DNA of 64,000 nucleotides from Phlebopus portentosus (taxonomy: Eukaryota; Basidiomycota; Agaricomycetes; Boletales; Boletinellaceae). The stretch covers positions 2,852,001-2,916,000 of the forward strand of contig JAYXKI010000003.1 of the NCBI GenBank assembly GCA_037892935.1. Reading direction: 5' to 3'. Every line of letters starts with the position of its first letter. Positions within the stretch are counted from its first letter, which is position 1. Positions 47,446 to 53,670 of the stretch are shown here, piece after piece. The position numbers and the translations under genes were made by a program. Under the pieces are notes generated by a model. The model was not told where the DNA came from and did not search any database. It saw nothing but the letters and a program-made list of their open reading frames with translations.

Positions 47446-50400
47446 ATGGCTTCAAGTTCTTTCATGTCCGAAAATCAATCTTTTTCGGAGGCAAATTCTA
47501 GCTGGGCGTCTCTCATCGTCGATCAAGTCCAAAACGCCCTCGAAGATGAGGAATATAGCAATATTCTGGACTTCAACACTGATGCTGGCGAACATAGCAC
47601 ACCAGCTAAATCGTAAGCAGGTGTCCAATGTTACTTTGAAAGAACATTTATACACCCCTGTTTTTCAGACCCGGCCGGTCAAACCAGCAGGTGGACATGA
47701 GAACCTTCGAGCAGATCCTGCAAGTGATGATACAACAGGGAGCCGCCTTAGACAAGCTTCACGAGGAGCTCGATCAGTATCGCCAAGAATGTAGACAGCA
47801 GCTTGAATACCGTGACGCGCGTCTTCGCGTAGCCGAAAAGGAGTTACGCTCTCTACGTGCGGATAAAGAGAGAACAATGTCTGAGCTCGAGGAGCTTGAA
47901 GAAGAACTTGGAGCACTAAGAGGTGTAGACGAAGAACCCACGTCGGCAAACGTCTTGACTAGGGAGGAGCACGATCGTATCGTACACCGCATTAAGGACG
48001 ACGCGAGACTGCGAATCGAGAATATTGAGGCCCAGAAGTCTCACGTTACAGTCCAGCTTTCTCAACTGCAGATCCAAGTTGCTCAATTGAAAAACCAACT
48101 TGACGACAAAAGCTATCCCGAAGAGGTAATTGAGGATCTCACCAAGACTCTACGATATACTATCATTGAGACCTGCAAAAATGGTTAGCTCAATTAGCGT
48201 TTTAAACAGCTGTCTGTACTCACCCATGCACTAGCGGACGTTGAAGCTCAAGCGGTGAAACAGGTCAGTTCGTCGATCATCGTCCCAACCCTCCTTCTAA
48301 CGATGTGGAACAGGAACTTGCTGCGACTCGACAACAATTGTCAGAGCGTAAGTGAAGTTAAGTATTTTTAGAAAACTTACTGGAGCACTTACCTTTTGTA
48401 CAGGAGAAATGGAGCTGGAGCTCACCCGCAACGTCAGTAGTACGTCCCTGTCACTCCAAGCGAAGCTGATTTTCGTCTCTAGGCTCGAGATAATGCAGAA
48501 ATTGAGATGGAAGAGCGTAAGTCATGGTAACTGATCGGGAACAAAACCTTTTTGCGATACCTCTTTTTAGTCAAAGCAAATCTTGAGGAGCTCCGTTCCG
48601 TAAGCTGTTTTCCTTCCTTTCTGCTGTCAATAGGCACCTCACAGACCTTTCAGGACTATGATACCATACATGAACGTCTAGCGGTTTGTGAGTACCGTCG
48701 GCGTTGCCGGCTTACACGTTTTACAAGCGATTTCACACAGCGGAATCAATGCAAAGCCGAGCCGAAGCTAATGAGGTAGGTCTTGAGAAATCCTTGGCAT
48801 GAGTGTCAATTATCTGATATTCTACGTAGGAAGTTTTAAGAGTGACTCAAAATGAGGCCCAGCATCGTACGTGTCACATCTGCCGTTTGGAAGCGAACTT
48901 ACGAAAAGGAATCTTCCATGAAGTCCAGATACAATTATCGGGAGTCAAAGCTGAACGAGATCAAGGTAAATTGCGTCCGTTGTACATTCCAAGTCAATAC
49001 TTACCTGATGCGAATAAATGCAGCTCTTTTGGAGTGCCAAAATCTCCACGATGTATGTAGATCGCCACACAATCACTATGATAAACTCAAAATCACTCCT
49101 AGTGCCTGAACAGAAGGGAATGGACTTGTCAGTAAAGTCGTATTCCTTGTCGTCGCCCTCGGCTTACGTGCATTTAGCGCCTTCGAGAATGGAATCGTCT
49201 AATGATGTGAGTAAAATTTTCGCTTATAACACTTTGCTTTTCTGACTCGTTTGAACCCAGGCTTCCATTCAAACCGAAGAACAGGTAGACGCGCTTCATG
49301 AAGAGCGAGATACAGGTAAGCGCGACCACTGGATGTCTACTAGGTCTCCGTGGAGTAGCATGATCCCGATTTTAGCCCTCGCGGAAGCTGAGCGCCTTCG
49401 TTCTGTAAGTCTCGCAACTCGTAACGCAATGAGCATCGTCAGGCTAATCTCATGCAGAATGTCTCTGAGTCATCACAGTCGGATACTGCACGTATGTACA
49501 TCATTAAACATTTTCTTGCTTTGTATCTGACGACTTCTCGTAGTAATCGAAGAGATCAAGAAGCTCAAACAAGTATGTACCAGCTACAGTATACTACTTC
49601 AGTCTTGACAGTGAAATTGTCTGCGTAGGATCTGAAGGATGCGGAAGGGCAACGCGATGAAGGTGTGTCCCTTCCCACGTCAGATCTCGCCGCACCTAAT
49701 TCTCTCAAAGCCGAGCGCGCGTCCAAAGAGACCGAGATTGTCCGTGGCACCATTTTCGTCTTGATTTCTGAAAGCACTTATTTTTCGACCAGGAACTTGA
49801 CGAAACGCGGGAGCGAGTCGACGAACGTATGTCCAATCGTTAGCAAAAAGGTACCGTTCTCTAATTCCTCTTATCCCAGTGGGTAAGACACTCGAAAGGG
49901 CTCTTGCCGTAAGTCGTTTCTCTTTACGTTGATGCAAGCATTACTGATGGTTATCCAGGACTTGGATGCTCTGAGCACACGCCGTTCAGAGAGTAAGGCA
50001 TCTTCAAAGTGTGAATAGCTGCAAACTCATTATTCATTATTAGTGGAAAAAGAAGTGCACGTTCTGAAAGAGGTGAGGATTCGGCCGTATATAATTATCC
50101 CAAAGGCTGGAATGTAGTTAGGACCTTCGCGCCGCCGAGGAGAAACTGGGCGCAGGTACGTTCTTTCTTATGCAAATTCGTAAGCTCTGATTAACCTTGT
50201 GTGATTATAGCCGTGAAGGAAGCTGCACAGGAGAAAGAGGTGACGTCTTTTCCAGTCGATGACACTTTCCTGCTGACGATCTGCTAGGAACTGGAATCTG
50301 CTAATGCTCGTAATTCTCAGCGTAAGTAGGTTTCTGAAGAATAAGGGCTACTAACTCACCGTTCCCTAAATAGTGGAAGACGATGTGAAGACCTTGAAAG

Positions 50401-53400
50401 AGGTGCATACTAGGTCAAACGTATCTAATGAGGTACTGAATTCTTGTTTAGGAGCTGCAGAGTGCCGAAGAGCAAGCTAAGAAGTGTGAGTGGTTCCCCG
50501 TCAACTCAAAGGATACCTTACTTACTTGATTCTAGTAAACGAAGCACTCGCGAGGGAGCAGGAGGTATTGCTCTTTTTCGTGCTGTGCTGTAGTTAGCTG
50601 ATGCGTTACCAGACGTCAACGGAGAACATCCGTCTCCGAACGCAAGGTAAGGTGTTTATTGAAAAGTATCCACGGGTCCTCACATATCTGTGAACAGTCG
50701 AGAAGGAATTGAAAGGTCTTCAGGCCGTGGGTGGTACAGTCGTGGTCGATTCTACTCGCAACTGAAATTGTCTTGTCAGCAATACTCGGAGCAAGCTCGA
50801 CTTGCTACGGAAGGTAGACTGAAAATCTCTGTTCAACATTTTTTTGTTAATACCCGAATAGGTGCACAGAAAGCTCAGGCATTACAGACGGTCCGTCAAT
50901 ATTTGCTGAACTTCCTGTTTTAATAACCAATACGCACTATCAAGAAACTCGATGAGGAGGAACAAAAGTCGTCTACATTGAGTGCTGAGCTAACGGAAAC
51001 AAAGAAACAATTGACGGAACGTAAGTCAGATACGCATACCCTCGTGCATGTTGCTGATTGCCGTTATCAGAAGTGGAATCCAATGCCTCGGAGTTGGAGA
51101 AGGTTCGCGCATCATTGCAAGAAGCGAAAGATGGCCGTGGTCAGGGTATGTCGGATATGAACTTTCGTCCTGACGAGCACGACTAAAGAGTGCTACAGTC
51201 GAAGCGCGTCTCCTGGAGATCACCGATATTCTGCAGAAGACAGAAAGGGAGCGCGATAGCAGTAAGTCCACTTAAAAGTTGTAGGCAAATACGAGGCTGA
51301 TGTTTCATGCAGTCGAAGCTCAACTGAGTATAGCTCAGGCTGCACTTGAGAGCGCTAGCCAACAGCAAACCGAAGGTCCGGATCGTGCGTGAACTCATCA
51401 GATGACATCTGACTCTTTTCATACAGTGAAATCAGAACGAGAGCAAAGCATTATGAATAAAGAAGCAGAACTTCAAAGAATCAAGGCCGAACTGCAGATA
51501 GATATCGACTCTCTAAAAGCTTCGTTAAAAGAAGCTAAGGAACAGATAAACAAAGGTATTCATGAAATTCAGCTTCCTCCACTGACGCTCATTGGTCACT
51601 ATAGAGGTCAAACTGCGGACTGAAGCAATGAAAGCTGCAGAGGATGTCAAGGCGAGACTGCTGGAAGGTAGACGACCCTTTAATTAAAATAGACGCTTCT
51701 AATTTTTTTGGCAGAGGCAAGAAAACTTGAATCCGAACTGAGCGAGGCGAGAAGGCGGACTATTGATTGTGTGTTATGTTTCATCGAAACTCAAAATTAC
51801 ATTAACTTTTCTGCTAGCGGAGGAGAAGGGCAAGAAGGACCGTACGGAAGGTACGTATAGTGACGCTTCTTTTGTCTCTTTCTGACGCCAGAGGACTATA
51901 GTGGAAGCTAAGGACAGAGAAATCGAGGGACTTCAGGATGCCCTCAGAGTAGCAGAAAATTGTCGCAAAGAAGGTATATCTCTTGTATTGGGCGATTAGA
52001 CAATGGCCTGACAGCATTCATGAGCTCTGAGAGAAAATGAACGCATCCGGCTGAAGTATGCAGAAGCAGAGGGTAACCGAGCAGAAGGTATATTGTCGTC
52101 ATTTCCCCTATTCAGCCGTTCCTATTGATTTCTTGGAACTAGCTGACATGCTGAATGAAGAGTTGCAACAAGTATGACTCCTTTCCGATTATCGAGACGT
52201 TTAGCTCATAAACTCTGTTTAGAAACTATCAGAGTTAGAAGAAGAAGCGAAAAAAGCATCTTCTATGGAGTCGGACCTGCAAAGCAGTACGAGTCATAAC
52301 TGCCTTGCTTGAGGTTATTTCCACTGATTGTTTGTCTGTGCAGCCCAAGCCCAACTAGCGCAGGCTATGGAGGTATGTCAATATCTTCACGCGTTTTATT
52401 CAGGGCTGATCCGTAGTTTCATCAGTCTATGAACGTCGCCAAGGACCAAGCTTCAAAATGTGAGCTACAACATCTCTCATCTTCCTGTCTGCTGACCCCT
52501 TGGCTGGATAGACTCGATGGAGATCGCTCAAAATAAAACGGCAAGTTCACCCATCAGCGTGCAAAAGCAAGATACTCATGAAAGCGCACTACAGACGATC
52601 GCAGAGTTACGTGCTGAAAATGAGCAGTTAATAGCTGCACGCCAAAAGGTCCGCTGGAAGCTCGCTCTCGAATGCTCTTCGGCTCTTGCTGATATGTTAC
52701 TTTCAAGATGGCTGCAATTTATGGCCTACCTGCTGAGTCACTAACCTCGCCCCGACACACGCCAACGCGAGTGATCCCTACTACACCAGTGAGAAGCTCG
52801 CAGTCATTATCACCATCAACAAGTTCCGGTCCCCTGCACTGGGTAGAGTATCCTGTACCTCCAGCACCTCCGACAAAACGCAGGAGAATTTCGAAGCAGC
52901 CGACGTCAGGAAGCTCTGGCAATGTAGCGCCTGGAACATCTCCTGCATCTGCCATCCTCCTAGACGAAGCAGGTGATCGAATGTCCACACCTCTGCCGTC
53001 GCCGATAAAGAAAGAGCAGAATGGTGATATTCCTCGACATATGGTCGAATTATGCTCGACATTTGCGAGGCTGTCGACGTGGCAGGACAATGAGGGTCGA
53101 TATCTCTGCGGTTTTTGCACGTATGTTTTGCTATCCTTCAGGTCACTCGTTTAGAGTATAACCTCATTTCTCAGGCTATATAACTCCAAACATGCGAGGG
53201 ACCGCCGCACTCCGCTCACATTTGACCCTTCGCAATATCCGATAACATTCTGGAAGCACTGCCTCATGCTTCACAAGGATGCTTTGAAACCTGACATTGG
53301 AACCTGGCTCAAGGCAGATGGTCATCCGTTAGCAGTAAGTCCGCAAGCCGATTATGCGAAGCCTCTTCCTGACGACATTCGTTGATCTTTAGGAGTCCGA

Positions 53401-53670
53401 TCCTTCAAATGATCTTACCTCAGTACTGGTGAACTTCATAGCGTGGAAGGGTGAAGCGGGGTACACATGTGGCTTGTGCAAGTAAGTTAACATTCTGCCT
53501 TTCCTCGTCCAGCAAAACGCTGATGGTGTTTACTTGCCCGCACCGAAAGATTGGAGAACAATATCACTAGCAACTGCGGGCCTATAGATTTCGACCCCTT
53601 CACCGAACCGATTCTGTTCTGGACCCATTGTCATAGAGAGCATGTACCGTTCTGGAAGCCTATTTCTTAG
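47446..53670 (+). CDS. Giant-exon-number coiled-coil protein with two C-terminal Cys/His motifs
   Basis: Unrecognised family. Exon 1 starts at 47446 (MASSSFMSENQSFSEANSSW). Exon 2 (47669-48183) begins a coiled coil (LDKLHEELDQYRQECRQQLE). From 48235 to 52648 about 45 small exons of mostly 29, 34 or 63 nt continue it; the joins keep a single Glu/Leu/Lys-rich frame with no stop, for example ALAEAERLRS, LIEEIKKLKQ, ELDETRERVDE, MEKEVHVLKE. A short non-coiled linker lies at 49070-49220 (exon borders unsure). After 52708 comes a Ser/Pro region with a basic TKRRRISKQ (nuclear-signal-like), then two copies of a Cys/His motif: RYLCGFC ... FWKHCLMLH and GYTCGLC ... FWTHCHREH, ending FWKPIS at 53670. 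About 50 exons in 6.2 kb. The expected product is a long rod with zinc-binding ends; a spindle-pole, tether or motor-associated role is guesswork. Confidence 0.75.
49376..50890 (+). repeat. Array of 19 microexons alternating 29 and 34 nt
   Basis: Nineteen consecutive exons have the lengths 29, 34, 29, 34 ... 29 with introns of about 48-57 nt, average near 51. 29-nt exons always run phase 1 to 0 and 34-nt exons phase 0 to 1. A pair plus two introns spans about 165 bp and encodes 21 residues. The exons resemble each other: 29-mers often begin T(G/C)GA(A/G)AA and encode x-E-K-E-x-x-x-L-K-E, while 34-mers often begin GA(A/C)CT and encode (D/E)-L-x-x-A. Each border shows a GT donor and an AG acceptor. 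Confidence 0.85.

Follow-up and report, generated by a model that had tools for sequence, protein, structure and literature searches.

Genes built from small duplicated exons are known, among them those of collagen, whose exons descend from a duplicated exon unit. The fibrillar collagen genes have exons of 54, 45 and 36 nucleotides (nt) (PMC4838654). In the micro-exon genes (MEGs) of flatworms the exons are each divisible by three, and the definition of such a gene asks for at least seven exons, of which no fewer than half must be micro-exons, shorter than 70 nt and divisible by three (PMC7653826). The gene described here lies on the plus strand, at 47446–53670, of a 64,000-nt stretch of contig JAYXKI010000003.1 (positions 2,852,001 to 2,916,000; assembly GCA_037892935.1, 38.4 Mb, Phlebopus portentosus), hereafter the window, and encodes a long coiled coil. 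Much of this coil is cut into consecutive exons of alternately 29 and 34 nt, and what distinguishes it from the genes just named is a microexon pair that is meaningful only jointly and whose length equals three heptads. The array is, on balance, probably an old tandem amplification of this two-exon, 63-nt, three-heptad unit, an account that we favour over repeated intron insertion.

Like the collagen genes, the coiled-coil gene has numerous small exons whose fixed size corresponds to a structural repeat, and whole units likewise keep frame and structure. Collagen exon sizes are each divisible by three, unlike those found here: the microexon pair is symmetric only jointly, the product is an alpha-helical coil and the host is a fungus, with exons mainly of 29, 34 and 63 nt and heptads in place of 54-, 45- or 36-nt exons and Gly-X-Y. 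With the flatworm MEGs the gene shares long runs of consecutive tiny exons and a run that can shorten in frame, whereas 29 and 34 are not divisible by three and in-frame skipping can proceed by pairs only. Its 53 exons exceed the minimum of seven, but just seven of them (42, 54, 33 and four of 63 nt) combine a length below 70 nt with divisibility by three, and at most three such exons (63, 54, 33 nt) are consecutive. The gene works like a collagen gene, looks like an MEG and falls under the definition of neither. Tandem exon duplication (PMC9013439) resembles the array in that neighbouring exons are equal in length and phase, as are the 13 pairs of 29/34 nt here with phases 1>0 and 0>1, and bear some sequence resemblance, which between the pairs here is weak; it differs in that the present unit has two exons and two introns and that its copies appear very old. 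The copies also look to be used cumulatively rather than, as in tandem exon duplication, mutually exclusively. No description of such an array was found among titles and abstract openings of the open-access literature, though one may exist in print.

The gene comprises 53 exons with a coding sequence of 3486 nt for 1161 residues, and all its introns are GT-AG. It was read from the letters and then tested with a gene model that takes no account of exon length (the length-blind model), whose fixed consensus splice weights were taken from general knowledge and whose result was unchanged at three intron penalties; the start codon was picked by inspection, and the splicing of every intron is predicted. 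At the centre of the gene, 19 exons of alternately 29 and 34 nt (exons 16–34, 49376–50890) are separated by GT-AG introns of 48–56 nt, with phases alternating between 1>0 and 0>1, just as the preliminary description of this DNA had reported. Of these 19 exons the length-blind model recovered 17 separately, fusing the other two into one exon of 111 nt (34+48+29) through the intron at 49663–49710, and a cruder first gene model recovered 14. Successive 29-nt exons start 162 to 169 bp apart, in agreement with the roughly 165 bp given earlier for a pair with its introns. The span reported for this strict array holds, but the pattern is wider: it starts at 48235 with three more pairs (exons 3–8, 48235–48687), upstream of that span, and ends with a pair at 52344–52459, so that the split coil occupies 48235–52459. 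In the whole gene the 29-nt size occurs 17 times, the 34-nt size 13 times and the 63-nt size four times, and 35 of the 53 exons are 42 nt or shorter. From exon 3 to exon 48 intron phases are solely 1 or 0, and exons without a phase-0 cut are all 1>1.

A chance origin of the 29/34 pattern is negligible. In the window together with 20 stretches of 10 kb (264 kb, less than 1% of the genome, with 60 crudely predicted genes), internal exons outside the coiled-coil gene measure 29 nt in 6 and 34 nt in 7 of 772 cases, and in the other 59 predicted genes exons of 15–45 nt run to four in a row at most. Nor is the splitting of coils general to coil genes in a small sample of 324 kb. That sample contains six further coil-scoring genes, all predicted, and for four of them (L007, L008, L016 and L024) the mostly-coil exons are listed, with lengths of 92–862 nt. 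The mean exon in a re-annotation of S. sanghuang is 236 bp (PMC10219462), some seven to eight times the size of the tiny exons described here. The gene also puts to the test a fungal spliceosome, which has to deal with dozens of exons of 29–34 nt set among introns some 50 nt long.

Four hypothetical proteins of Sanghuangporus, ACEPAF_7100, ACEPAH_6293, ACEPAI_6585 and ACEPAG_3470, are orthologues, with 99.1, 92.6, 88.5 and 84.1% identity to the window protein over 1121–1122 aligned residues (1122 for ACEPAF_7100, which is nearly identical along most of its length). Judged by this protein, the genome of the window stands very near to S. sanghuang. Collinear with them are 47, 47, 48 and 43 of the 52 junctions, respectively, the last junction failing in all four. 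Within the strict array, each of the four proteins is collinear with the window protein at the 17 introns other than 49663–49710. Among these proteins the strict array shows no unit gained or lost, the only differences being read-through of 49663–49710 and, in two of them, of 49316–49375 just upstream; the array was therefore probably fixed before the four species split.

One 29/34 unit amounts to 63 nt, 21 residues and three heptads, and the positions of its introns are locked to the core of the coil. Of the 29 codons split by a phase-1 intron, 19 encode a hydrophobic residue (base rate 0.326, p = 0.0003), and such residues are found again and again at offsets 0, 4, 7, 11, 14, 18 and 21 from the phase-1 introns. 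Of the 28 intervals between successive phase-1 introns, 27 equal 0, 3 or 4 residues modulo 7, and the same is true of 10 of the 11 intervals that differ from 21 residues (p = 0.0014); therefore, the exon lattice stays on the coil core even off the 21-residue step. Within units, insertions and deletions seem to be confined to coil-compatible steps.

A copied unit should match its fellows best in register, as against a rotation by one or two heptads, and should do so also away from the splice sites. This is the case for the nine units of exactly 21 residues in the strict array: their mean BLOSUM score is 0.491 in register and 0.208 when heptad-rotated (p = 0.0007), their identity 18.7% against 14.7% (p = 0.0033), and with eight splice-adjacent positions masked the excess persists at p = 0.029 (BLOSUM) and 0.017 (identity). 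Part of these unit statistics was computed on an early model with a 93-nt exon, which the exact 21-residue units do not touch. At the DNA level, the 13 units of 29/34 nt, which share identical phases, are 0.353 identical in register, while other whole-codon shifts give at most 0.326, that maximum falling at a whole-heptad shift. Pairs reaching 0.49 identity number 5 of 78 in register (formed by the units at exons 3, 18, 24, 26 and 28) and 0 of 156 when heptad-shifted; at 0.45 or above the figures are 7 of 78 and 3 of 156. The top direct repeat returned by a repeat finder has four copies, each beginning at the acceptor of a 29-nt exon (48235, 50044, 50374 and 50698), with 63–74% identity to the reference copy. 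Exon 2 (47669–48183, 515 nt), a coiled coil without introns in the same gene, serves as an internal control and is counted for duplication. The direct repeat within 50041–50729 recurs two units apart (330 and 324 bp), and residue similarity in the strict array is as high at a shift of 42 residues as at 21; two-unit steps may account for the growth of part of the array.

Duplication is what we infer as the cause of these regularities. The copied unit would have been a 29-nt exon, a phase-0 intron, a 34-nt exon and a phase-1 intron, inside a long coiled-coil gene. Gain or loss of a whole unit would leave reading frame, intron phases and coil register intact; because one unit is 63 nt, 21 residues and three heptads, unequal recombination between copies would be tolerated where a change in a single exon would not. 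Selection on frame and coil would then have fixed the exon lengths, with silent sites and introns drifting to randomness, and later changes inside units would have been accepted mostly as whole heptads or as shifts of three or four residues. The exact exon lengths would need no splicing rule, because frame and coil are left unaffected by unequal recombination only when it involves whole units. Towards the 3′ end, several units would have lost their phase-0 intron and become 63-nt exons. Such exons had been reported before and are real, although of the four starts only that at 51605 (51605–51667) was exact, the others being 51199 (51199–51261), 51313 (51313–51375) and 52025 (52025–52087) in place of 51182, 51314 and 52018; the 129-nt exon, also reported, is present at 51427–51555 and equals 2 × 63 + 3, and like the 63-nt exons it has phase 1>1. 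The proposal that 63 nt represents 29+34 with one intron lost agrees with length and phase; loss of the phase-0 intron and an ancestral one-exon form both fit, and loss rather than later gain, which this single genome does not distinguish, is our presumption.

Several observations weigh against the amplification. Amino-acid identity between units is just 18.7%, and homology rests on a modest statistical excess. Third codon positions match between units at chance (0.274), resemblance of introns within phase classes was sought and none was found, and the four 63-nt exon units do not resemble one another in register (p = 0.84, n = 4); against the 29/34 units their in-register mean is the best (0.255 vs −0.045 and 0.157), singly in two of four only. 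When the coil is taken as a whole, its 21-residue signal is modest, with p = 0.024 for the window protein, 0.008 for P0003 and 0.064 for P0001 (the orthologues at 88.5 and 99.1% identity). An earlier masked test, mis-specified in that its null readmitted splice-adjacent residues, gave p = 0.044 and 0.093 under a light mask and 0.25 and 0.39 under a heavy one; the cleaner masked form quoted above supersedes it. The duplication would have to be old, because silent sites stand at chance, introns lack similarity within their class and the 63-nt units are mutually unlike. The preliminary description had held that exons of one size class resemble each other and that tandem duplication of an exon–intron–exon–intron unit is the simplest explanation. 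Both claims survive in a reduced form: the in-register excess is there, but weak and not shared by silent sites, by introns or by the 63-nt exons among themselves, and duplication is still the best explanation, with moderate statistical support.

More distant relatives add to the points against. The protein searches yielded six proteins in all among the candidates scored (in two of the searches, the 7997 and 7991 sharing most words). One is P0005 of Pyrrhoderma noxium, 960 residues long, with 32% identity over 37% of the query; another is P0006, with 982 residues, from a contig of 4346 bases. Since its coding length leaves at most 1400 bases of that contig for introns and flanks, P0006 is either a transcript or derives from a gene much poorer in intron sequence than this one. 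Both share their N- and C-terminal parts with the window protein. P0005, related to the window protein at its ends, differs from it in having no 21-residue periodicity (p = 0.32). Residues 228–731 of P0006 do have a 21-residue coil periodicity (p = 0.0015), which was considered as an outgroup trace of the unit and rejected, its register being unlike the unit profile (p = 0.99). The two proteins are shorter than the 1161-residue model by 201 and 179 residues, or about nine units, and their middle aligns too poorly to place the missing part in the array. P0005 is named kinesin K39, a name that finds no support, as Pfam gives no motor domain for the window protein or for P0005.

Among the alternatives, one reverses the order of events: a protein with 21-residue repeats would have existed first, in one or a few exons, and introns would then have been gained at equivalent sites through a shared proto-splice sequence, the phase-1 series before the phase-0 series. 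The 63-nt exons accord with this order, for they have phase-1 borders and no phase-0 intron, as if the phase-0 series had come later and fallen short of the 3′ end; the unrelatedness of the intron sequences and the G-starting codon that follows the phase-0 intron in 11 of 18 cases accord with it as well. Such a course would nonetheless require dozens of independent events, each precise to one base, and while a typical proto-splice site has G after the intron, T or C starts the exon after the phase-1 intron in 23 of 29 cases. The lack of mutual repeat similarity among the units of the 63-nt exons speaks against it too, and we consider repeated intron gain rather unlikely. The locus makes a clean case for telling introns carried by duplication from introns inserted at spaced sites, as the two predict differing outgroup structures. 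Alternatively, the borders could follow coil geometry with no duplicated unit, with structure or splicing as the reason why introns came to lie, or were kept, at core codons. The core-to-core placement of 10 of the 11 intervals other than 21 residues would be expected in that case, as would 63-nt exons that are mutually unlike in sequence, but the exact 29/34 repetition and the in-register similarity off the splice sites would be left unexplained, and we know of no mechanism by which introns could sense heptads; an origin from geometry alone thus has little to commend it. Still less credible is an insertion of introns into the linker DNA between nucleosomes, which the likeness of the period to a nucleosome repeat, pointed out in the preliminary description, would imply. 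Fungal nucleosome repeats are near 162–169 bp, and the spacing of the 29-nt exon starts does fall there; the period, however, follows with no special cause from 63 nt of exon and two introns of about 51 nt, whose size is ordinary (48–56 nt, against a median of 57 nt in the genome sample), and insertion into linkers would hardly yield one-base precision, alternating phases and two introns per period.

The regularity might also be partly an artefact of reading, with several array introns unspliced or spliced otherwise. All four Sanghuangporus annotations misread the introns at 48867–48923 and 49663–49710 or read through them, two do so with that at 49316–49375, and the length-blind model likewise reads through 49663–49710. 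Set against this are the 17 exons that the same model yields and the 17 of 18 collinear introns in each Sanghuangporus protein; moreover, the three introns are multiples of three in length and free of stops, a class that annotation easily misses. An artefact is accordingly very improbable for the array as a whole, and the soft spot is 49663–49710 (48 nt, no in-frame stop), with its weak donor gtgtgt and weak acceptor tcaaag, where the model and the four annotations stand against our reading. We still take it for an intron, because it lies exactly where the pattern predicts, because the read-through residues would place Gly and Pro inside the coil, because P0001 and P0003 disagree in 5 of the 16 read-through positions, above the expectation from their identities to the window protein, and because the annotated read-through of S. 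baumii runs into unrelated residues where the next exon is expected, as if in another frame. The three introns may be annotation errors or genuine retained introns; those at 48600–48653 and 50814–50861 are also multiples of three without an in-frame stop, yet are spliced out in all four annotations. The gene is a caution to annotators, in that public annotations of related species read through some such introns of it. A different proposal concerns function in place of origin: the exon lattice could be a splicing ruler, the 29+34 pair forming a three-heptad cassette of about 3 nm of coil that is skippable only as a pair, because skipping a single exon breaks the frame. If this were so, coils of varied length could be made from one gene with the heptad register kept, and introns would be held at core codons by selection, not merely inherited from duplication. 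The arithmetic permits pair skipping, and a functional ruler of this kind would be quite a long shot. Tandem amplification of the two-exon unit, with the qualifications above, remains the account that we prefer.

The remaining parts of the split coil are less regular. Between the first three pairs and the strict array, 48741–49315 holds exons of 35, 37, 42, 29, 25, 29 and 55 nt, with phases 1>0 or 0>1 except for the 42-nt exon (1>1). The 25- and 29-nt exons (49103–49127 and 49178–49206) are those used by three of the four Sanghuangporus proteins; the fourth fits a single 93-nt exon at 49114–49206, which was dropped in favour of the two because of that majority and because they restore the alternation of phases. 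Downstream of the strict array, exons 35 and 36 (50945–51145) measure 76 nt (= 34+42) and 75 nt (= 63+12). The 63-nt exon at 51313–51375 is possibly one of 72 nt, as two of the four Sanghuangporus annotations and the length-blind model take a donor 9 nt downstream (51376–51384), and the model also starts the 129-nt exon 9 nt later than 51427. Exons of 54, 33 and 72 nt, each 1>1, follow at 51715–51973. The protein sequence of the 63-nt exon at 52025–52087 is conserved in Pyrrhoderma noxium, and the last part of the split coil, 52143–52459, consists of exons of 29, 64, 29 and 34 nt.

The C-terminal part (52512–53670) is encoded by larger exons of 137, 413, 160, 89 and 121 nt. The last of these, 53550–53670, lies beyond the end of all four Sanghuangporus annotations and is supported by the C-termini of P0005 and P0006. 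For neither the window protein nor P0005 does Pfam give a family above the cut-off. This part of the protein contains a basic stretch, KRRR, and two Cys-Cys…His-Cys…His motifs; at 53095–53670 the two spaced motifs, of the CxxC…HCxxxH type, are conserved in P0005 and P0006 and perhaps form an undescribed zinc-binding domain. Taken together, these C-terminal features suggest, from sequence alone, a nuclear scaffold-like protein.

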